Below are positions 1,576-23,264 of a stretch of 31,693 bases of DNA, piece after piece (the stretch's first letter is position 1; each line of letters starts with the position of its first letter). Source of the stretch: a virus; IMG/VR virus record IMGVR_UViG_3300002835_000704, positions 1 to 31,693 of that record; one strand, written 5' to 3'. The notes beneath the pieces are model-generated. The model saw only the letters and a program-made list of their open reading frames with translations. It was not told where the DNA came from and did not search any database. The position numbers were made by a program, and so were the translations under genes.

Positions 1576-2910
1576 TTAGTTATCATCGCCACCTCCTCCA
1601 GGTGGTGGTGGTGGTGGCGCTGGTGGTGGTGGTGGAGCCACACTTGATATAGTAGGATCAAATATATCAATTTGTTCTCCTGATGTTACTGCTGCTACGT
1701 TACCCGCAACAGAAACTTGTTTCCAGTTGGTTCCTCCTGCGAATGTTGTGACTGGAGTTGTTGTGCAATCAAATCCACTAGACTGAAATCTACCATTTCC
1801 TAAATTTCCACGATAATTACGTCCCCAAATCCATAAGGTTCCATCAGTCTTGATTGCTGATGTAAAACCTCCACAAGAAACTTGTTTCCAGTTGGTTCCT
1901 CCTGCGAATGTGGTGACTGGAGTGGATCTATTGGTTGTATTATTGATTCCTAATTCTGCAATAGCATTACGTCCCCAAACCCATAGAGTTCCGTCAGTCT
2001 TGATTGCTGCTGTAGAGTTGTCTCCACAACTCACTTGTTTCCAGTTGGTTCCTCCTGCAAATGTTGTGACTGGAGTGCATATACCAGTTTGACTTGTACT
2101 AGTTGTATTGTTTCCTAGTTGTCCATAAGCATTAAGTCCCCAAATCCATAGAGTTCCATCAGTCTTGATTGCTGCCATATGACCTCTTCCAACAGAAACT
2201 TGTTTCCAGTTGGTTCCTCCTGCAAATGTGGTGACTGGAGTGGATCTACTAAGTGCTGTAAACCCAGATTTTCCTTCATTGTTTCCTAGTTGTCCATTAT
2301 AATTACGTCCCCAAACCCATAGAGTTCCATCAGTCTTGATTGCTGCCACAGAATCATTAGAACCACAAGAAACTTGTTTCCAGTTGGTTCCTCCTGCAAA
2401 TGTAGTGACTGGAGTGGATCTAGCTACTCCGATTCCTACGCCAGGACGGCCGAGGTTGTTTCCTAGTTGTCCATCAATAGCACGTCCCCAAGTCCATAGA
2501 GTTCCATCAGTCTTGATTGCTGCCACGGAGGACCCCGCAGCAGAAACTTGTTTCCAGTTGGTTCCTCCTGCAAATGTGGTGACTGGAGTGGATCTACTGA
2601 CTGATGTATTGCCTCCTAGTTGTGCATAACTATTAGATCCCCAAACCCATAGAGTTCCATCAGTCTTGATTGCTGCTGTATGTTGACCTGCAGCACTTAC
2701 TTGTTTCCAGTTGGTTCCTCCTGCAAATGTAGTGACTGGATAAACACTACCACCATCATTTGAAGAAGTATTATTTCCTAACGCTCCAAAACTATTTGGT
2801 CCCCAAACAAACAATTTATCACCGATATATTGATCAATTAACCAATACTCTGTTACAAAATAGTTAAAAGTTTCTAAATCTCCCTCTGGGGATAAGAATT
2901 GGTTGGGCAT
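1576..2910 (-). CDS. Complete seven-blade RCC1-repeat propeller protein with polyproline tail
   Basis: A 444-aa protein starting at ATG 2910. After a ~32-residue N-terminal segment I count exactly seven RCC1-type units of about 50-59 residues. Each has (L)W-x-W-G, a variable loop, then the nearly invariant TPVTTFAGGTNWKQVS and AIKTDGT. Seven is the number needed to close an RCC1 propeller. The variable loops (for example GRPGVGIGVAR in blade 3 and GRFQSSGFDC in blade 7) fall at the same place in each blade and would line one propeller face. The C-terminus is low complexity, with runs of five and six prolines followed by GGGGDDN. No catalytic motif is visible. A virion adhesin is inferred from the context and the paralogue at 1-860. 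A TATAAATA motif lies 46 nt upstream. Confidence 0.9.
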   Translation of the reverse strand: MPNQFLSPEGDLETFNYFVTEYWLIDQYIGDKLFVWGPNSFGALGNNTSSNDGGSVYPVTTFAGGTNWKQVSAAGQHTAAIKTDGTLWVWGSNSYAQLGGNTSVSRSTPVTTFAGGTNWKQVSAAGSSVAAIKTDGTLWTWGRAIDGQLGNNLGRPGVGIGVARSTPVTTFAGGTNWKQVSCGSNDSVAAIKTDGTLWVWGRNYNGQLGNNEGKSGFTALSRSTPVTTFAGGTNWKQVSVGRGHMAAIKTDGTLWIWGLNAYGQLGNNTTSTSQTGICTPVTTFAGGTNWKQVSCGDNSTAAIKTDGTLWVWGRNAIAELGINNTTNRSTPVTTFAGGTNWKQVSCGGFTSAIKTDGTLWIWGRNYRGNLGNGRFQSSGFDCTTTPVTTFAGGTNWKQVSVAGNVAAVTSGEQIDIFDPTISSVAPPPPPAPPPPPPGGGGDDN

Positions 2911-2971: not shown

Positions 2972-3724
2972 TTAAAGCAAATCAAAAGGAATTGATGGGA
3001 AATTTTCTTGAGTCCACAAGACCATAGTTTCAATATCAAAATTAATATCACAATCTTCATTAATAATACCAAAAGAAGAATCTACAGAATTTTTTTTATT
3101 TGTATCTGGGATAATACTACTCAAAGGAATTTCAATCCCCGGTTTAAATCCAATTTCTTTTACATAATATTCGGAAATAGAGAAATCTTCAACTTTTGGA
3201 ATATTAAAGTGTTCACAAACACTATCTAAGGTTTTTCTTTTATTTGTAAAAAAATCATTACTTTTAATCCACAAAACATCTTCAACTTCCATTAGATATA
3301 ATATTCTACTCATCCACATTGCTGTAATTTTTTTAATATCGGATTCCAAAGAATGTTCTTTAACTAATGGATGCAGACATTTGTTACCATAGAAATCAAC
3401 TTGAGAGACTATTTTTTCAATTCTTTTTTTCTCTAAAGATAAAATTTTAATTAAATGATGAGTTAAATTTCTGTATAAAAATACTTTTTTCCCACGATAA
3501 AAATTAGAAAAAGAACAATATATACTTGGAAATTTAATTATACAATCAGATCTTTCATTCAAGATTTTATAAAATTCTTTTTTAGAATCTTCTTCTGTCA
3601 ATATTGAATGCAACCAAGGAGGTTCTGAATAAACTTCTGAAGAAAATCTCAACAAAGTAGACATTAAAGTTGAACCACAATGCGATGTATGATAAATTTG
3701 ATGAATATTATTCATTTTCAACAT
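2972..3724 (-). CDS. Sulfotransferase-like P-loop protein
   Basis: A 250-aa protein. Near the N-terminus, IYHTSHCGSTLMSTLL matches the 5'-phosphosulfate-binding loop of the bacterial sulfotransferase-like family, whose signature is 'H-x-x-x-C-x-STLL-x-x-L' followed by a conserved E-P (here S-E-P-P-W). A second block, KKVFLYRNLTHHL, fits the 3'-phosphate-binding strand and helix ('VFLYR'). The segment around AMWMSRI...VLWIKSNDFF fits the later W and acidic-position blocks. It probably transfers sulfate from PAPS, or is a relative with a changed substrate; acceptor unknown. ATG at 3724 overlaps the upstream oxygenase gene by 17 nt, and a second ATG at 3715 would still overlap by 8 nt. It closes an apparently coupled trio with two 2OG-Fe(II) oxygenases. 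Neither start has a clear Shine-Dalgarno. Confidence 0.65.
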   Translation of the reverse strand: MLKMNNIHQIYHTSHCGSTLMSTLLRFSSEVYSEPPWLHSILTEEDSKKEFYKILNERSDCIIKFPSIYCSFSNFYRGKKVFLYRNLTHHLIKILSLEKKRIEKIVSQVDFYGNKCLHPLVKEHSLESDIKKITAMWMSRILYLMEVEDVLWIKSNDFFTNKRKTLDSVCEHFNIPKVEDFSISEYYVKEIGFKPGIEIPLSSIIPDTNKKNSVDSSFGIINEDCDINFDIETMVLWTQENFPSIPFDLL

Positions 3725-4409
3725 CCCATTCTTTTATTTTCCATTTATTTGAAAGTTCTGGATACATTGGTGAAGGTATCATACCAATAAAATAAGTAAT
3801 TGCATACCTTCCAAAATTATTATTATAATCTTCTTGTCCTATATTTACTTTTTTGACAGAATGTTTTACATATGCTGGAGTAAGAATTATAGTATTGTGT
3901 TCACATTTAAAGTGATAGTTTCCATATTGTGGGAAATATAATTCTCCTCCCGTATATTTTTTTGGTTGTTTGTTGAAATAAGTAAATATTGCATAATTAC
4001 TTCTATAATCAGTATGAGGTTTATAATACTCTCCATTAGCATAATATCTTGCTTTTACTAGACAGTGAGAATTTTCTAAATCCAATAAACTCAAAAATTG
4101 TGGAAATCTATCAACAAAAGAACTTATAAATTGATGATCAATTTTTTTTTTAAATAATTTAAAAATATTTGAATATGGTTGTTGGTTATAAAAATCGTTT
4201 AATCGTATTGCCTTATGATTCGTGAGAAAAACTACCTTATCATCTTTAACAGCAGATGCTCCATGAACATGTCCTGGAGGTAAAAACTTTTGCTCTTCTG
4301 TTATTGAATCAAGCACTTCCCAAATTAGTTTTAACTCTTCTTCATCATAAAAGTTTTCAGCAATTAAATGTGGAAATGGTTCTGTTAATATTGTAATTTT
4401 TTTATTCAT
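3708..4409 (-). CDS. 2OG-Fe(II) oxygenase (prolyl-4-hydroxylase-like)
   Basis: A 233-aa protein. I place the start at ATG 4409, which overlaps the upstream stop as TAATG; a TTG at 4421 would extend it by four residues but is less likely. It has the double-stranded beta-helix iron motif H132-x-D134 (in KPHTDYRSN), distal H183 (in AYVKHSVKKV) and R201 (in GRYAITYF) as likely 2-oxoglutarate ligand. The block YTGGELYFPQYG is the typical 'GGEL-F' strand of prolyl-4-hydroxylase-type enzymes. These enzymes hydroxylate protein side chains or small molecules using O2 and 2-oxoglutarate; the substrate here is unknown. It is the middle gene of an overlapping trio (oxygenase, oxygenase, sulfotransferase-like) just downstream of an S74 tail fibre, which suggests action on virion proteins or surface glycans (inference). 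Confidence 0.85.
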   Translation of the reverse strand: MNKKITILTEPFPHLIAENFYDEEELKLIWEVLDSITEEQKFLPPGHVHGASAVKDDKVVFLTNHKAIRLNDFYNQQPYSNIFKLFKKKIDHQFISSFVDRFPQFLSLLDLENSHCLVKARYYANGEYYKPHTDYRSNYAIFTYFNKQPKKYTGGELYFPQYGNYHFKCEHNTIILTPAYVKHSVKKVNIGQEDYNNNFGRYAITYFIGMIPSPMYPELSNKWKIKEWDVENE

Positions 4410-4954
4410 TATCCGTACCAACCAACTAAAACTTCTCTTTCACCAGATATAAGTTGTGTTGCTCTATGAATCAAGTTTGAAGGAAAAACAACATAATCAC
4501 CTTCATCTAATTTTTTTGAAAAAATTTCATTATCATATTTAATTTCCAATTTACATCCCTTATAATTATTTTTTGGTGTTAGGCAATAAATTATAGTTAT
4601 TAATCTTTTTAAATTAGGATCAGAATTATCTAATACGTCAGTGTGCCAATCATAATGATGTCCAAAATTACAATATTTAGTATATTGCATATTAGTTTGC
4701 CAATCAGAAAGTTTAAATTTCCAATTATCTTGATTTATATTTTTTACAAGATTTTTTAGAAAAGAACTGATTATATTTTTTTTATCTTTAGAAATCCAAA
4801 CAATTTCGCAATCTCTTTGTTCTTTTATAAATTTTTGTTTTGTACGTACATTAAATAACTTTGTTTTAATATTTTCATCATCAATATACTTCTTTATGGA
4901 AATAATTTGATTTATATCATTTCCATAAAATATTAAATTTTTTAAATCCGACAT
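4409..4954 (-). CDS. 2OG-Fe(II) oxygenase (PKHD-type)
   Basis: A 181-aa protein from ATG 4954, one base after the stop of the S74 fibre gene (TAA-A-ATG), so probably translationally coupled. The C-terminal half carries the full oxygenase signature: H104-x-D106 (HYDWHTDVLD), the strand RLITIIYCLTP, EGDYVVFPSNLIHRA with H163, and R173 followed by VLVGWYG. The ending 'x-R-x-x-x-x-GW' is typical of PKHD-type hydroxylases. The N-terminal ~85 residues lack a familiar motif and resemble the substrate-recognition part of such enzymes only in size. It is distinct in sequence from the adjacent oxygenase at 3708-4409, so this is not a simple recent duplication. Substrate unknown. Confidence 0.87.
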   Translation of the reverse strand: MSDLKNLIFYGNDINQIISIKKYIDDENIKTKLFNVRTKQKFIKEQRDCEIVWISKDKKNIISSFLKNLVKNINQDNWKFKLSDWQTNMQYTKYCNFGHHYDWHTDVLDNSDPNLKRLITIIYCLTPKNNYKGCKLEIKYDNEIFSKKLDEGDYVVFPSNLIHRATQLISGEREVLVGWYG

Positions 4955-4955
4955 T

Positions 4956-6947
4956 TTATTGTTTTAACTTTCTCTCCAGTTCTTCAATACGAACTTGTTG
5001 TTCCTTGATTGCTTCAATCAATACACCAACGATGTTTCCATAAGATACTGATTTTGTTCCATCAGCACTCGTTTCTACAAGTTCTGGAAGAACCTTCTCA
5101 ACTTCTTGAGCAATCAAACCAAGTGATGGTTTATTATTATCTATCCAATCAAATCTTACACCTTGAAGTTGTTTTGTAAGTTCAATTGAATTTTCTATTG
5201 GTTGAATATTTGTTTTTTGGGTCACATCAGAGAGTGATGTGAATTGTGTTGCTGAAAGATTTCCAGTTGATGGGTTGAATTGAAGTTTTGTTGATGATAC
5301 ATTTACTGTTGATACAGATCCAGAAGTTGCACTGGTAATAGGAATGTATCTGGTTGCGTTTGTTGAAGTATCATCAGTAAGTGTTAATCCTCCAGAAGCT
5401 GCTTGCCATGTAGGAGCACCGGCAGTTCCATTTGAAGTTAATACCTGACCTGCAGTACCATAATTAGCACCATTGAGACCAAATGCACCAGAACCATTAA
5501 ATTGGGCTCTATTGTTTCCTGCACCATCAGATAAGAAGATATGGTTGGTGCAGCTGACAAATCCAGTTCCAGTAAATCCACCAATAACAACATTGCAACC
5601 ACCAGTAATTAAACAACCTGAGTTGCATCCTAAAAAGACATTATTAGAACCAGATTGGTTGGACGTACCAGCATTAGGACCTAAAAAGATATTAGAAGAT
5701 CCAGTGAATATAGAAGATCCTGCATTACATCCCAGGAAGAAGTTATTAGATGGAGGAGACTTAGTATCAATGTTTGTAGCAGAAGTGTTACAAGAGAGGA
5801 AGTTAGAAGTACAGCAAACAGTAATTGGACTTGCATTAAGTGTACTCCATGTAGGAGAAGCAGCACCATTGGAAGTTAATACTTGTCCAGCAGACCCAGC
5901 AGCAGTAATTGCCATTGCTGATGAAGTAGAATATACAACTCCACCATTAACTGCCGTTAATGAAGCATTAGTACCACCATCAGCAAGAGTTACATCAGTT
6001 CCACCAGATACATAAACAGTTCCACTAACATCTTGGAATGTTACGGTTCTTGATGCCCCTAGTGTTGTTGGTGTAAGAGAAAGATTGAAACTTGATGTTC
6101 CACCAGCACGTCCATTCAATGAAATGGAGTCTTGTGTTACAGCATTTCTTGCTGTAATAATGCCAGTAAATAAACCACCACCCTGAACTGTGAGTAACGA
6201 TGTTGGATTAGTGGTTCCGACTCCAACAAAACCACTACTATTTACAGTAACATCATCAGCACCTCCACCATCTCTTCTAAGTCCTGATGGAGAATAAGAA
6301 TCAAGGAATGCAAGTTGTCCTAGATACTGATTAAGTGGAACTTGAGATGCACCAATACCAATATCTGCCTGAGATACTAGGTTCCAGTATTGACCTGCAT
6401 AAAGTTCTGTGATTGTTCCACCAACAGATAGAGTGGATGTTGGATTTGTTGAACCAATACCAACAGAACTACTAAAGTAACCACCACCAGTAACCTGAAG
6501 TGGTTGTGATGCTGTTCCTGTTGTAGAACCTGTCCCTATAACTAACGAGGTTCCAGTAGCAGGAATAACCCAACTATTACTGGAAAATTGGTAAGCAAGT
6601 CTATTTGAACCTTGTGATTGAATATTAATATTGCTATTATCGTTATGATTTAATACAAATCCATTACCACTTGATGATATTAATGTTCTGGTTCCAGCAC
6701 CTCCAACTTCACTAATACCTAATGTTCCAGCAATTGCAACTTGTGTATTTGATGCTGGATTTGTATTACCAACTCCAAGATTGCCAGAAACATAACCACC
6801 ACCAGTAACTTGAAGTGGTTGTGATGCGGTTCCTGTTGATGTTGCTGATCCTACTAAAACTGGTCCGTTTGTAAAAGTTGAGATGCCAGTAATTCTTAAA
6901 CCTTGGCTGTCATCAATTACAGTAGTACCCGAAATCTTAATTGCCAT
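4956..6947 (-). CDS. Tail fibre protein with C-terminal S74 intramolecular chaperone
   Basis: A 663-aa protein with a good Shine-Dalgarno (GAGGA, 7 nt spacer) before ATG 6947. It opens with MAIKISGTTVIDDSQGL and repeated fibre units (GISTFTNGPVLVGS, SQPLQVTGGGYVSG, VGIGSTNPTSTLSV). Residues ~375-460 are a Cys-rich patch of NN-x-FLG-x-NAG repeats. The C-terminus (from S573, in SDVTQKTNIQP) is a peptidase S74 / endosialidase chaperone domain: LGLIAQEVEKVLPELV, SVSYGNIVGVLIEAIKEQ, and a short coiled coil. The family helps fibres trimerise, then cleaves itself off just before the conserved Ser; S573-D574 are present. Location in the virion tail is inferred from the family. Two further S74 fibres occur at 11059-14802 and 14824-15825. 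Confidence 0.88.
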   Translation of the reverse strand: MAIKISGTTVIDDSQGLRITGISTFTNGPVLVGSATSTGTASQPLQVTGGGYVSGNLGVGNTNPASNTQVAIAGTLGISEVGGAGTRTLISSSGNGFVLNHNDNSNINIQSQGSNRLAYQFSSNSWVIPATGTSLVIGTGSTTGTASQPLQVTGGGYFSSSVGIGSTNPTSTLSVGGTITELYAGQYWNLVSQADIGIGASQVPLNQYLGQLAFLDSYSPSGLRRDGGGADDVTVNSSGFVGVGTTNPTSLLTVQGGGLFTGIITARNAVTQDSISLNGRAGGTSSFNLSLTPTTLGASRTVTFQDVSGTVYVSGGTDVTLADGGTNASLTAVNGGVVYSTSSAMAITAAGSAGQVLTSNGAASPTWSTLNASPITVCCTSNFLSCNTSATNIDTKSPPSNNFFLGCNAGSSIFTGSSNIFLGPNAGTSNQSGSNNVFLGCNSGCLITGGCNVVIGGFTGTGFVSCTNHIFLSDGAGNNRAQFNGSGAFGLNGANYGTAGQVLTSNGTAGAPTWQAASGGLTLTDDTSTNATRYIPITSATSGSVSTVNVSSTKLQFNPSTGNLSATQFTSLSDVTQKTNIQPIENSIELTKQLQGVRFDWIDNNKPSLGLIAQEVEKVLPELVETSADGTKSVSYGNIVGVLIEAIKEQQVRIEELERKLKQ

Positions 6948-7337: not shown

Positions 7338-8537
7338 CTATTTAGTTAAGGTTTGTAATTGAGAGTTAGTAAGACGGACTGGGTAGTAGGAGAGTTGGGA
7401 GATGGTTCCGTTGAGTGGATTGAATGTTCCCCAAGATGCATTTCCAATTTTTAAACTATTAACTGTCGGTAAAGTGCAAGAAGTATCTGTTGTTGGAGTG
7501 GATGAATTGAAAGATCCTGCGGAATCATTTGTTTTATAAGAAATTGAAATTTTATTAAAACTTCCTGCTGTTATTGTTGAACTACCAACTGCAAACTGAT
7601 TAACTCCACCATCAATCATATTAAATCCAATACCAGTTGATCCACTATCATTAACAACATACATACTTTCATTAAATGTTGAACTATCACCAATTGCCCA
7701 TAATATCTGCCCAAAAGTAGGTGGATTTATATATAAAAATCTTCCAGAACAAGTAACATTACCTTCACTTTGATTATACCAACTACTGAAGTTTGTTCCA
7801 GTCATAGAAGCATTATCAGCACTTCTGGTGACTGTTGATGCTACTGTGGGGATGTAGGAGGTTGCAAATGCTCCGGTTTCTAATTGAGCACCCCATATTG
7901 CAATTTGTGCTGTATTATTTTGATCAGCAAGAAAAAACATACTGACTCCCGTTTGTGCTGTAACATTTGTAAATGTTGTGCTAAATCTCTTCCATTCAGT
8001 TGTTAAATTGCTGTTAAAAGCAACGTTTGATCTTGTAAGGGCAGTTCCATTGTGAAATGATGCAGAAATTATATTTCCTGCAGTTGGAACACTTCCACTA
8101 ATTAATTTTGCCCAGACAGAACAAGTATAAGTTGTATTTGCATTTAAATTGACTCCCTGACTTACAAATATGTTTGCTTGACTTCCATCACCAGAAAAAT
8201 AAACTGCAGTATTTGTTCCATCTGGTGCTGTTGTAACTCCAATTCTTGTAGTATTTACACCTTTGCCCCAAGGAGAAACTAAATTATCGGGAGTTGTTGA
8301 TTGCAATAATATGTTAGTCCTACTCTCTTCAATCAACAAACCTAAACACTCACCAGTTGTTGCATTAAAATCAAATCTTGGAGTATCAGTCGCAGCACTC
8401 TTAATCAATCCATCACCACCAGTATAAGTCGCAGAAGAACTACGAGTGAATGTAATGCGTGGATCTAACTTCTGCGAACGTGCAAAGTTTAGATTTAAAG
8501 AAGGACGAGTACTTGGAAAGTTTTGTGATATTGACAT
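7338..8537 (-). CDS. Lectin-like (LamG-type) virion protein, paralogue 3 of 3
   Basis: A 399-aa protein. I choose ATG 8537 (MSISQNFPST), which aligns with both paralogues and follows the upstream stop by 1 nt; the frame is open further upstream but that part overlaps the preceding gene. Three parts are visible. Residues 1-80 are an N-terminal block with RITFTRSSSATYT and LGLLIEESRTN, a widespread phage signature. Residues ~85-220 look like a carbohydrate-binding jelly roll (TTAPDGTNTAVYFSGDG, TYTCSVWAKL, AIWGAQLETGAF). Residues ~225-399 are a LamG/concanavalin-like domain ending NGTISQLSYYPVRLTNSQLQ. No catalytic residues are evident, so glycan binding as a tail or capsid decoration is inferred. 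It is the most divergent of the three copies. Confidence 0.82.
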   Translation of the reverse strand: MSISQNFPSTRPSLNLNFARSQKLDPRITFTRSSSATYTGGDGLIKSAATDTPRFDFNATTGECLGLLIEESRTNILLQSTTPDNLVSPWGKGVNTTRIGVTTAPDGTNTAVYFSGDGSQANIFVSQGVNLNANTTYTCSVWAKLISGSVPTAGNIISASFHNGTALTRSNVAFNSNLTTEWKRFSTTFTNVTAQTGVSMFFLADQNNTAQIAIWGAQLETGAFATSYIPTVASTVTRSADNASMTGTNFSSWYNQSEGNVTCSGRFLYINPPTFGQILWAIGDSSTFNESMYVVNDSGSTGIGFNMIDGGVNQFAVGSSTITAGSFNKISISYKTNDSAGSFNSSTPTTDTSCTLPTVNSLKIGNASWGTFNPLNGTISQLSYYPVRLTNSQLQTLTK

Positions 8538-10365
8538 TTTACTTCGTGAGGTTTTGAAGTTGGGAGTTTGTGAGACGTTTTGGGTAGTAGAGAAGTTGGG
8601 AGATGGTTCCGTTAATGTAATTACCACCACCAGAATTTCCAATATCAATAATTGTATGAGTAATGGGTAAAATTACTGATGTGTCAGTTTGAACTGTTCC
8701 TCCATTTTGAGAAAATGCAAAATCATTTGTTTTAATGGCACTTATAAGTTTTACTCTACTACCTTGAGAAATTGTAGTTCCGGATTGAATTAATGTGGCA
8801 TCAAAACTAGTTCCATTGTAATTAATTGTTCCTCCTGTATTTACTGACTCCCACCATCCATGCCAAGTATTTGCGGATCCAGTACCACGAAGATAAAATG
8901 CAATTCTATTCATTACACCACTGATTGGTGCTCCATCATATTTTATGTTAGTTAAGATAGTTCCTTCTGTTTGATTATACCAACTACTGAAGTTAGTTCC
9001 AGTCATAGAAGCATTATCGGCACTTCTGGTGACTGTTGATGCTACTGTGGGGATGTAGGAGGTTGGGAATGCTCCTGCTTCTACCTGATGTCCCCACGCA
9101 TAAACAGTTTGTCCAGAAACATTGGAAGTTCCTTGATCTCTTACATAAACTCTAGAAACTCCCCCAGTAGTGTTATTTCCACTGTTATAGGTAATAATTG
9201 CTCTGTACCAACCATTAGGATATGATACTAAAGAAGAAGTTGCTGTTGTTCCTCCAGTTGTCGTTAATACTGTTGAAGGTGTTGCTCCCCAAGTAATTTC
9301 AAGAACTGCTTGTCTAAATGTGCCCCCAGTAAAATATATATTTGTTGTGCTTTTAGAACTTGTACCTGCTTTGAGAAATACTGAATATGTGTAATCAGTA
9401 TTTGAAGATATACTGAAATTTTTATCCACATAGCAAGTATTAGAACCACCATTTATATTTGCTGTTAATGTGTCTGCTGTAGTTGCTCCATCTGGTGAAG
9501 TAATCGTATTGGTAGAAATTAAAATATCACTAGTAAAACTATTATTACTATAATCTTCACTATAAGTAGTCAAATTAGTCCTACTTTCTTCAATCAACAA
9601 TCCAAGACTATTCACACTTCCAGTAGAAGAATTATAAGAATGATCAAATCTTGGAACATTAGCACTTACAGTTTCAATCAATCCTTGTGCATTTGTTCTT
9701 GTTGCAGAAGAACTACGAGTGAATGTAATACGTGGATCTAACTTCTTACTTCTTGCGAAGTTAAGATTAAGTGATGGTGAAACTGATGGGAAGTTTTGTG
9801 ATATTGCCATTTTACTTCGTTAGGTTTTGAAGTTGAGAATTTGTAAGACGAGTGGGGTAATAACTTAAACTACTTATGGTTCCGTTCCAAAGATTACTAC
9901 CTACTGTATTAGTCTGTCCAATATTTAATCTAGTTACAGTAGGAAGTGTAACAGAAGTATCTGTGGTTGTTAAACTTCCATTCACACAGAATGTTGAACT
10001 ATTTGTTGCAAATGAATGTATAGACTTGAATAAGTTTGTTGTTGATAAAGTTCCAAAAACATAATCAGTTTGCAATACTCCACTCGTATTAATAGCATAA
10101 TTTGTAAATTGAGTGCTTGCATCAACACCATATGCTATATAACTATTATTTGATGTGCCGTCACTTATTGTATAAAGATTTGGATACCCAGAAAAGTTAC
10201 CACTATAACCTCTTCTTGCTTGTACTAATATTGTCCCACCCGTTGATGCTGTTGAATTATACCAACTACTGAAGTTAGTTCCAGTCATAGAAGCATTATC
10301 GGCACTTCTGGTGACTGTTGATGCTACTGTGGGGATGTAGGAGGTTGGGAATGCTCCTGCTTCTA
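7773..10365. repeat. 110-nt repeat in three lectin-like paralogues
   Basis: The copies at 8974-9083 and 10256-10365 are identical over 110 nt. The copy at 7773-7882 differs at about six positions. Each encodes the hinge around SYIPTVASTVTRSADNASM between the jelly-roll-like and LamG-like domains. Confidence 0.9.
8539..9810 (-). CDS. Lectin-like (LamG-type) virion protein, paralogue 2 of 3
   Basis: A 423-aa protein from ATG 9810 (MAISQNFPSV), 1 nt after the upstream stop (TAA-A-ATG). The architecture matches its neighbours: RITFTRSSSATRT and LGLLIEESRTNLTTYSEDY at the N-terminus, a jelly-roll-like middle (SPDGATTADTLTA, DYTYSVFLKAG, VYAWGHQVEAGAF), then a LamG-like end closing NGTISQLLYYPKRLTNSQLQ. 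The hinge (SYIPTVASTVTRSADNASM) is encoded by a 110-nt stretch identical to the one in the 9812-11062 gene, while the flanking middle and C-terminal regions differ strongly. That pattern fits diversification of the binding surfaces around a conserved scaffold. Confidence 0.83.
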   Translation of the reverse strand: MAISQNFPSVSPSLNLNFARSKKLDPRITFTRSSSATRTNAQGLIETVSANVPRFDHSYNSSTGSVNSLGLLIEESRTNLTTYSEDYSNNSFTSDILISTNTITSPDGATTADTLTANINGGSNTCYVDKNFSISSNTDYTYSVFLKAGTSSKSTTNIYFTGGTFRQAVLEITWGATPSTVLTTTGGTTATSSLVSYPNGWYRAIITYNSGNNTTGGVSRVYVRDQGTSNVSGQTVYAWGHQVEAGAFPTSYIPTVASTVTRSADNASMTGTNFSSWYNQTEGTILTNIKYDGAPISGVMNRIAFYLRGTGSANTWHGWWESVNTGGTINYNGTSFDATLIQSGTTISQGSRVKLISAIKTNDFAFSQNGGTVQTDTSVILPITHTIIDIGNSGGGNYINGTISQLLYYPKRLTNSQLQNLTK

Positions 10366-11062
10366 GTTGAGCACCCCAGATATAGATACCTGATGTTCCG
10401 TCACCTGCAAAAGATGAACTTGGACTTACTGCAGTTGTAACATTAATTCTAGATATATCATTTGATAGAGCACCGGATACTACAATAGAACATCTATACC
10501 ATCCATTACCGACATTTTGTATTGAACCAACCGATCCAGCTGATGATGAGGATACTTCACCAGTTGATAAATCAAAAGATGATCCTATACTTCCTATCCT
10601 TAATCCAACAAAGTTATACCCACCAGATTTTGCATAAACACTGAACACTTGTGTGGTTGTTGAACTTGTTGGGGATTGATCCAGTCTATGTTGAGCATTA
10701 GTAGTATTGGGTAAGAGTAAATCTGCATTATTACTTCCATCTGGTGCAGTCGTTGCTGATGTGTTTGTTGTAATTCCTGCATTTACTTTACTCCAAACAG
10801 CATTATCAAACTGTTCACTATAAGTAACCAAATTAGTTCTACTTTCTTCAATCAACAACCCTAAACTTTCAACATTACTTCCATTATAAGAATGTTCAAA
10901 TCTTGGAGAATTTGCTGGTGCTGTTACAACCAATCCATTACGATCCAGATAAGTTCCACTGCTACTTCTTGTGAAAGTAATGCGTGAATCTAATTTTTCT
11001 GCACCAGCAAAGTTTAAAGATAAACTTGGTCCTTCATCTGGGAAGTTTTGACTTACACTCAT
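9812..11062 (-). CDS. Lectin-like (LamG-type) virion protein, paralogue 1 of 3
   Basis: A 416-aa protein. ATG 11062 overlaps the upstream fibre stop as ATGA, with GGA-rich sequence (AAGGATAGGATTGGAGA) upstream. The N-terminus has MSVSQNFPDEGPSLSLNFAG, RITFTRSSSGTYLDRNGLV and LGLLIEESRTNLVTYSEQF. The middle domain carries APDGSNNADLL, VFSVYAKSGGYN, GNGWYRCSIVV and IYIWGAQLEAGAFPTSYIP, typical of phage carbohydrate-binding-like jelly rolls. The LamG-like end closes NGTISSLSYYPTRLTNSQLQ. It is first of three tandem copies after the 1247-aa S74 fibre. Binding of host surface glycan is inferred. An AATAAATA candidate lies 23 nt upstream of the start, inside the fibre gene. Confidence 0.84.
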   Translation of the reverse strand: MSVSQNFPDEGPSLSLNFAGAEKLDSRITFTRSSSGTYLDRNGLVVTAPANSPRFEHSYNGSNVESLGLLIEESRTNLVTYSEQFDNAVWSKVNAGITTNTSATTAPDGSNNADLLLPNTTNAQHRLDQSPTSSTTTQVFSVYAKSGGYNFVGLRIGSIGSSFDLSTGEVSSSSAGSVGSIQNVGNGWYRCSIVVSGALSNDISRINVTTAVSPSSSFAGDGTSGIYIWGAQLEAGAFPTSYIPTVASTVTRSADNASMTGTNFSSWYNSTASTGGTILVQARRGYSGNFSGYPNLYTISDGTSNNSYIAYGVDASTQFTNYAINTSGVLQTDYVFGTLSTTNLFKSIHSFATNSSTFCVNGSLTTTDTSVTLPTVTRLNIGQTNTVGSNLWNGTISSLSYYPTRLTNSQLQNLTK

Positions 11063-22534: not shown

Positions 22535-23209
22535 TCACTTAAATGCGGGACCGTGAACCCAACCAACTAAAGTATATCTTGTTCCTTTAGTAACAGGTTT
22601 AACTTCGTGCAACGTATAAGATGGGAAAAAAATTATTCTGCCTCTTTTCTTTTCTATAATTGTTGGTTCTTTCCCTGTATATAAACAAAGATCTCCACCT
22701 TCATAGTCACCTGAATCAGAAAGTTGAAGAATCAAACTCAATTTACGATTTTCTGGCACATTAGTTCCTGATATTGGATCTATATGTTTTTCATAAAAAC
22801 CATTATCTTCTTCTTTATATTTTGTAAATTGAAAAGTTTCTAATTTTGTTAAATCAAATTGGAAGAATTGATCATTTATTTGATTCACCGCATCCGTAAT
22901 TTTTCTGTAAATCCATTCGGTATGTTTATTGGCAAACATCCACGACAATTTACACATACGAACATCTGAATTTACCTGACTAATATTTCCACCAACTCTT
23001 GCCAGCTCTTCTGCATATAAATTTCCAAATCTGATAATTTGATCCAATTGATCTTCACAAAAAACATCATCAATAAACGCAAAATTTTGATAATCATATC
23101 TCTTTAGGTACCAAAAATCTTGAGTCTTATATTTAAAATCTTCTGGATCTATAATTGGTGCAATTTGATCCAAATTAAATTTAGGTGCAATAAAATATGA
23201 TGAAATCAT
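22535..23209 (-). CDS. 2OG-Fe(II) oxygenase (PKHD-type)
   Basis: A 224-aa protein from ATG 23209; a TTG two codons earlier is a weaker choice. It has a complete oxygenase signature: H142-x-D144 (FYEKHIDPISG), RKLSLILQLSDSGDYEGGDL, GRIIFFPSYTLHEV with H201, and R211 in GTRYTLVGWVHGPAF. The 'YEGG-x-L' and 'x-R-x-x-L-x-GW' blocks are typical of PKHD/prolyl-4-hydroxylase-type enzymes acting on protein residues. The N-terminal ~125 residues contain aromatic helices (DFWYLKRYDYQNFAFIDD). The pair with 21964-22527 is closely spaced but the two are divergent in sequence. Substrate unknown; a virion structural protein is a reasonable guess from location. Confidence 0.87.
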   Translation of the reverse strand: MISSYFIAPKFNLDQIAPIIDPEDFKYKTQDFWYLKRYDYQNFAFIDDVFCEDQLDQIIRFGNLYAEELARVGGNISQVNSDVRMCKLSWMFANKHTEWIYRKITDAVNQINDQFFQFDLTKLETFQFTKYKEEDNGFYEKHIDPISGTNVPENRKLSLILQLSDSGDYEGGDLCLYTGKEPTIIEKKRGRIIFFPSYTLHEVKPVTKGTRYTLVGWVHGPAFK

Positions 23210-23264
23210 TTTCAAAGTTTTGAGATAAAGAATATTTTTTTAAATTTTAAAGATCTTATTTTAA

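Follow-up and report, generated by a model that had tools for sequence, protein, structure and literature searches.

A conserved pair of 2OG-Fe(II) oxygenase and sulfotransferase-fold genes in uncultured viruses and its possible role in two-step protein modification

Sulfotransferases of the Pfam family PF13469 are known from phages, and their function is called unclear in a report covering OM43 phages (PMC10580990). In that phage group, both oxygenase and PF13469 sulfotransferase genes occur, and the accessible part describes no linked cassette of the two (PMC10580990). Among cyanophages, Synechococcus phage S-SCSM1 carries 24 2OG oxygenases (PMC9602691), and cyanophage enzymes of this type have been discussed as modulators of 2-oxoglutarate (PMC3037559). 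Earlier reports of sulfotransferases in phages and of 2OG oxygenases in cyanophages give neither a known role (PMC10580990, PMC9602691). No description of a linked cassette, or of the sulfotransferase-fold family presented below, was found in the literature covered, which leaves out most subscription journals.

The locus described here lies in a stretch of viral DNA of 31,693 nucleotides (IMG/VR record IMGVR_UViG_3300002835_000704, positions 1 to 31,693), referred to as the window. A cassette of two oxygenase genes and a gene for a sulfotransferase-fold protein at 2972-4954 on the minus strand, noticed in an initial annotation, was confirmed. OX1 (4409-4954, minus strand, 181 amino acids) encodes a 2OG-Fe(II) oxygenase of PF13640 and phrog_61. 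It is followed by OX2 (3708-4409, minus strand), a predicted prolyl-hydroxylase-type 2OG-Fe(II) oxygenase of 233 amino acids from its ATG, or 237 from an alternative TTG start 12 nt upstream. The last gene, ST (2972-3724, minus strand, 250 amino acids), encodes the predicted sulfotransferase-fold protein, which belongs to an unnamed phage family. Re-deriving the coordinates upheld the close packing of the three genes. OX1 starts after a 1-nt gap behind an S74-type fibre gene (4956-6947, minus strand, ending at 4956; Peptidase_S74 domain, Pfam, E 4.5e-14), TAATG is common to the OX1 stop and the OX2 start, and the OX2 and ST coding sequences overlap by 17 nt (3708-3724, minus strand).

The absence of a late promoter within the cassette, also claimed initially, agrees with a scan of the window for the T4-type late-promoter-like octamer TATAAATA. 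The octamer occurs twice, both times on the minus strand, with 3.7 copies expected by chance. One copy lies at 2957-2964, past the ST stop and before an RCC1-repeat gene (1576-2910, minus strand), and the second at 1559-1566, before the next gene. Since both fall outside the cassette, no late promoter is visible that would belong to its three genes. This absence is suggestive only, the octamer count not being above chance. The position and strand of the copy at 2957-2964 likewise only suggest that the cassette has its downstream boundary there.

RCC1-repeat genes surround a DUF4376 gene downstream of the cassette (1-860, 862-1542 and 1576-2910, minus strand). Synechococcus phage S-SRM01 has the same order of RCC1, hypothetical and RCC1 genes without the cassette, which therefore looks inserted between the fibre and RCC1 genes. 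Elsewhere in the window, three tandem ORFs occupy 7338-11062 on the minus strand (7338-8648, 8539-9810 and 9812-11062). The two that were tested, 7338-8648 and 9812-11062, both match the phrog_5939 tail protein and are therefore likely paralogues. Contig 3300037508_001085 (L005) is devoid of the segment at window 9097-10248, a loss that would be expected if the copies had recombined. Another PF13640 oxygenase gene of the window (22535-23215, minus strand, 226 amino acids, E 5e-18) has no ST beside it.

Both oxygenases of the cassette are recognised by profile searches. OX1 matches PF13640 with an E-value of 6e-12 (46.8 bits) and OX2 with 3e-8 (34.8 bits), the Pfam cut-off being 27, and both match phrog_61 in PHROGs. 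The OX1 sequence carries an HxD motif (HTD) and a distal HR. In OX2, the iron ligands H132, D134 (HxD) and H183 are invariant in 23 sequences, and R201, the distal arginine for 2OG, is nearly invariant among them. The Pfam scores and the metal-ligand residues bear out the initial view of two distinct 2OG-Fe(II) oxygenases. The AlphaFold model of OX2 (pLDDT 85) has a double-stranded beta-helix fold. Its nearest folds are PolD, PHD2, PiuC, P4H and OGFOD1/Tpa1 (Z 14-16), with a top VIA Z of 16.4 to PolD/PHD2. In this model, OX2 takes a fold of the prolyl-hydroxylase type; its HxD...H...R site is intact, and a protein hydroxylase activity is predicted for it from fold similarity.

ST matched none of the Pfam, PHROGs and NCBIfam models, and its search against PDB sequences returned nothing relevant. 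Similarly, none of the Pfam sulfotransferase models, PF13469 included, matched any of 20 ST members at an E-value of 5. The P-loop-like IYHTSHCGSTLMSTLLR is present in the protein, and AlphaFold prediction with 20 relatives gave a model with a pLDDT of 89.5. Foldseek returned SULT2A1, TPST1 and TPST2 as the top PDB matches of this model, as well as heparan sulfotransferases. VIA alignments scored the CurM sulfotransferase at Z 13.0, the Synechococcus olefin-synthase sulfotransferase at 12.8 and TPST2 at 12.0, and the best 50 matches listed were all sulfotransferases (Z 13 to 9.8). The best fold match in BFVD was an annotated sulfotransferase of cyanophage S-SCSM1. The Foldseek check and the VIA matches listed thus sustain the description of the 250-amino-acid protein as sulfotransferase-like, and a sulfotransferase alpha/beta fold is well supported by the model. 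A resemblance to tyrosylprotein sulfotransferases is predicted at the level of the fold, given the Z of 12.0 to TPST2. The link to PF13469 at the level of sequence profiles appears weak but directional: the ST profile against 28 cyanobacterial PF13469 proteins gave P 5e-4, compared to 0.45 for a reversed control, and an hhalign probability of 32%. An hhalign comparison with two PF13469 proteins from phages had too little depth to be informative. By eye, the landmarks of ST follow the same order as RSG[ST]T, E, DK[ST]P and R in the cyanobacterial PF13469 proteins, and it is this motif order that defines the correspondence between ST residues and those of solved sulfotransferases.

Relatives of ST were collected from IMG/VR in two profile searches. 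The first, in which the pattern YHTSHCG was fixed so that variation in the PAPS loop stayed hidden, yielded 31 loci. The second used the C-terminal part of ST alone, which avoids this bias, and yielded 58 loci, many of them divergent. The merged set holds 61 loci, or 38 clusters at 90% identity. In a canonical donor site, the PAPS loop contains Lys or Arg and the 3'-phosphate helix carries a Ser (review, PMC11625862). G17, S18, E34, P35, K80, R85 and W137 of ST are invariant in 38/38 clusters and T19 is found in 37/38, so the Gly-Ser/Thr-Thr of the PAPS loop is present. K64 is kept in 32/38. The Lys or Arg of the loop is replaced in the window by His15, a residue shared by 28/38 clusters, the window included; two clusters, those of L158 and L169, have Arg at this position, and the remaining eight have other residues. 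The variants recovered with the C-terminal profile were Arg, Tyr, Phe, Asn, Ser and Gly. As for the Arg...Ser pair on the 3'-phosphate, the Arg is present as R85, yet Lys93 takes the place of the Ser in 32/38 clusters. The PAPS site suggested initially is therefore retained in part, with the G17/S18/T19 loop and R85 in place and positions 15 and 93 non-canonical. E34 is the putative catalytic base, judging from the order of the landmarks.

Due to the replacements at positions 15 and 93, the use of PAPS by ST stays putative. It is possible, though unlikely, that ST has the sulfotransferase fold without being a PAPS enzyme, either taking another donor or acting as a binding partner that steers the oxygenase. 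Both replacements and the faint profile link to PF13469 would fit such a protein. However, L158 and L169, which keep Arg at position 15, are placed beside the clade of the window, and the invariance of E34, K80 and R85 points to an active site and not to a relic. A transfer of sulfate from PAPS is the activity predicted for ST.

A 2OG oxygenase lies directly upstream of ST in 37/38 clusters, compared to a background of 28 oxygenases among 454 other genes (6%) in the same loci. No probability was put on this count, since the clusters are not independent observations. In L166 and L182, the upstream oxygenases were assigned by resemblance to Pfam-supported neighbours, without a Pfam match of their own. 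The order of the cassette is also kept in L006, the nearest relative (75% identical), whose OX1 is 65% identical to that of the window. This conserved order and the adjacency of oxygenase and ST across the clusters indicate that the cassette is more than a chance arrangement. Between one and three oxygenases directly precede ST. At least two in tandem were found in 14/38 clusters, including the window, L006, L015, L039, L040 and a divergent clade (L166, L176-L188), and the type of the oxygenase next to ST visibly differs among clades. The distances of ST and OX2 are correlated (r = 0.87; 0/2000 permutations as high), and the two genes share 1-17 nt in 18/19 of the pairs counted, that of the window among them; such overlaps are usual in the window's clade and near relatives. 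Comparative gene order hence indicates a conserved core of a single oxygenase and ST, with OX2 as the core partner and OX1 as an accessory. The synteny of the initially noticed genes in relatives is supported, most widely for the oxygenase-ST pair.

Because these phages abound in 2OG oxygenases (PMC9602691, PMC3037559), some adjacency of the two gene types is to be expected. Oxygenase and ST could accordingly act on separate substrates, as neighbours inherited together in cyanophage accessory regions, where 2OG oxygenases and surface-modification genes build up. Tandem oxygenases without ST in S-H38 are in line with this, as is the loss of either gene alone: L026, within a clade at a replication locus, has ST without an adjoining oxygenase, OX2 being lost, and L007 and L008 have OX2 at the replication locus with ST missing. 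Nevertheless, this explanation is rather unlikely. The 37/38 clusters exceed the 6% background, the same ST family stands beside different oxygenase types, the pairing is kept in three unrelated loci, and no oxygenase is annotated beside the PF13469 sulfotransferase of S-SRM01.

Variation was also seen next to the pair. In L018 (3890-5005), the whole of OX2 is joined in frame to the phrog_7759-type gene that precedes it, and in L019 (4001-5005) the junction of a similar in-frame fusion lies inside OX2; these fusions could be real variation or stem from the assembly. In L176, a locus of the divergent clade, a kinase-like gene (phrog_10255, 4516-4938) lies directly 3' of ST, and an ORF of similar size follows ST in several sister loci.

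The genomic surroundings of the pair differ between lineages. The terms freshwater and marine used here are labels that we assume from IMG sample numbers and from neighbouring genes. In the window and most freshwater relatives, the cassette lies in the tail-fibre locus. In a marine clade, the order is PhoH, exonuclease, gp33, OX2, ST, gp59, phrog_468 and gp32, and in a T7-like clade, a scaffold gene (phrog_1052) is followed by an oxygenase and ST, with psbA next in L168. The replication-locus and T7-like contexts each form one supported clade of the ST tree (99/97 and 100/100), and the pairing is kept in both T4-like and T7-like viruses. The psbD of L006 is 95% identical to Cyanobium/Synechococcus, and together with the psbA of L168 it points to cyanobacterial hosts for those viruses. 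Several of the uncultured viruses with the cassette are clearly viruses of cyanobacteria. No ST family member was found in cultured phages (INPHARED, with divergent members also queried), plasmids gave nothing relevant, and a pattern scan of GTDB species genomes revealed no relative. Against 386 cyanobacterial genomes, the ST profile returned only three short weak matches, two of them full of stops.

The suggested linkage to the S74 fibre does not extend beyond part of the family. L006 has the RCC1-repeat gene and no fibre in front of the cassette, and the other clades place it between gp33 and gp59 or between scaffold and psbA genes. A cassette tied to fibres was rejected on this synteny, and the S74 fibre gene of the window is, by gene order, a neighbour outside the conserved cassette. 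Since fibre adjacency is not kept, position favours neither fibres nor surface glycans as the target. A modification of host or phage glycans, in which a sulfated surface polysaccharide alters adsorption or superinfection, is accordingly regarded as improbable. The fibre locus of the window and many freshwater relatives would suit it, and the matching locus of S-SRM01 holds a sulfotransferase, a glycosyltransferase and an epimerase. On the other hand, no glycosyltransferase was seen conserved with the cassette, two clades place it away from fibres, the nearest folds of OX2 are mainly protein hydroxylases, and the sulfation of sugars needs no hydroxylase. Still far less probable is a modification of nucleic acids, in which the P-loop enzyme would cap a base or tRNA after its hydroxylation. 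One clade does lie among replication genes (PhoH, exonuclease, gp59, gp32), but the others lie outside such loci, OX2 is of the prolyl-hydroxylase type, and the OX2 matches listed include no TET/JBP or AlkB structure, although this is not proof.

Hydroxylation followed by sulfation of one substrate, probably a protein, is the reading we prefer, and we give it about an even chance of being right. OX2, together with OX1 where present, would put a hydroxyl group on the substrate using O2, Fe(II) and 2-oxoglutarate. ST would then move a sulfuryl group from host PAPS to the new hydroxyl, with E34 as the likely base and K64, R85 and K93 standing in for the usual donor-binding residues. The substrate is most likely a protein or peptide, as the nearest folds of OX2 are mainly prolyl hydroxylases. 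The gene overlap suggests translational coupling and a matched dosage of the two enzymes. The analysis shows the modelled folds, the OX2 metal site, the gene packing and the conserved pairing, and sequential action, PAPS as the donor and protein as the target are inferred. A broader proposal, namely a viral system for two-step protein hydroxylation-sulfation that is spread over unrelated cyanophage lineages and uses a sulfotransferase-fold family whose PAPS site is rebuilt and for which no cellular home is known, is tentative and on the doubtful side. Regarding the initial annotation as a whole, the sulfotransferase fold and the synteny stand, yet the PAPS site is non-canonical and OX1 is an accessory. 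Of the two outcomes that would have counted against it, a different fold lacking a PAPS site and a lack of synteny of the three genes in relatives, neither arose completely.

For at least a part of the phage sulfotransferases and cyanophage oxygenases, the fixed pairing provides a specific chemical hypothesis, and the small cassette can be cloned. Moreover, ST represents a sulfotransferase-fold family that goes unrecognised by the libraries searched and has unusual donor-site residues.

Compared to known systems, OX1 and OX2 belong to the cyanophage 2OG-Fe(II) oxygenases (phrog_61, PF13640), of which only the cassette subset precedes ST. In Synechococcus phage S-H38, for instance, three tandem overlapping annotated 2OG-Fe(II) oxygenases (L046, 2870-4675) have no ST behind them. 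OX2 shares its fold and metal ligands with HIF/P4H-type hydroxylases (PHD2, P. putida P4H, OGFOD1/Tpa1, PiuC), to which it is about 11-24% identical. The PF13469 (Sulfotransfer_3) proteins of S-SRM01 and S-SCSM1 are also predicted sulfotransferases of Synechococcus phages, and that of S-SRM01 lies in a fibre/RCC1 locus similar to that of the window. In contrast to ST, they have a canonical RSGST loop and belong to another sequence family. With the PAPS sulfotransferases (CurM, the olefin-synthase sulfotransferases, TPST1/2 and the cytosolic SULTs), ST shares the predicted fold (Z 13.0 to 9.8) and a glycine-rich loop, an acidic residue, a Lys and an Arg in the same order. It differs from them in its low identity (8-17%), in having His for Lys/Arg and Lys for Ser, and in matching no Pfam model.
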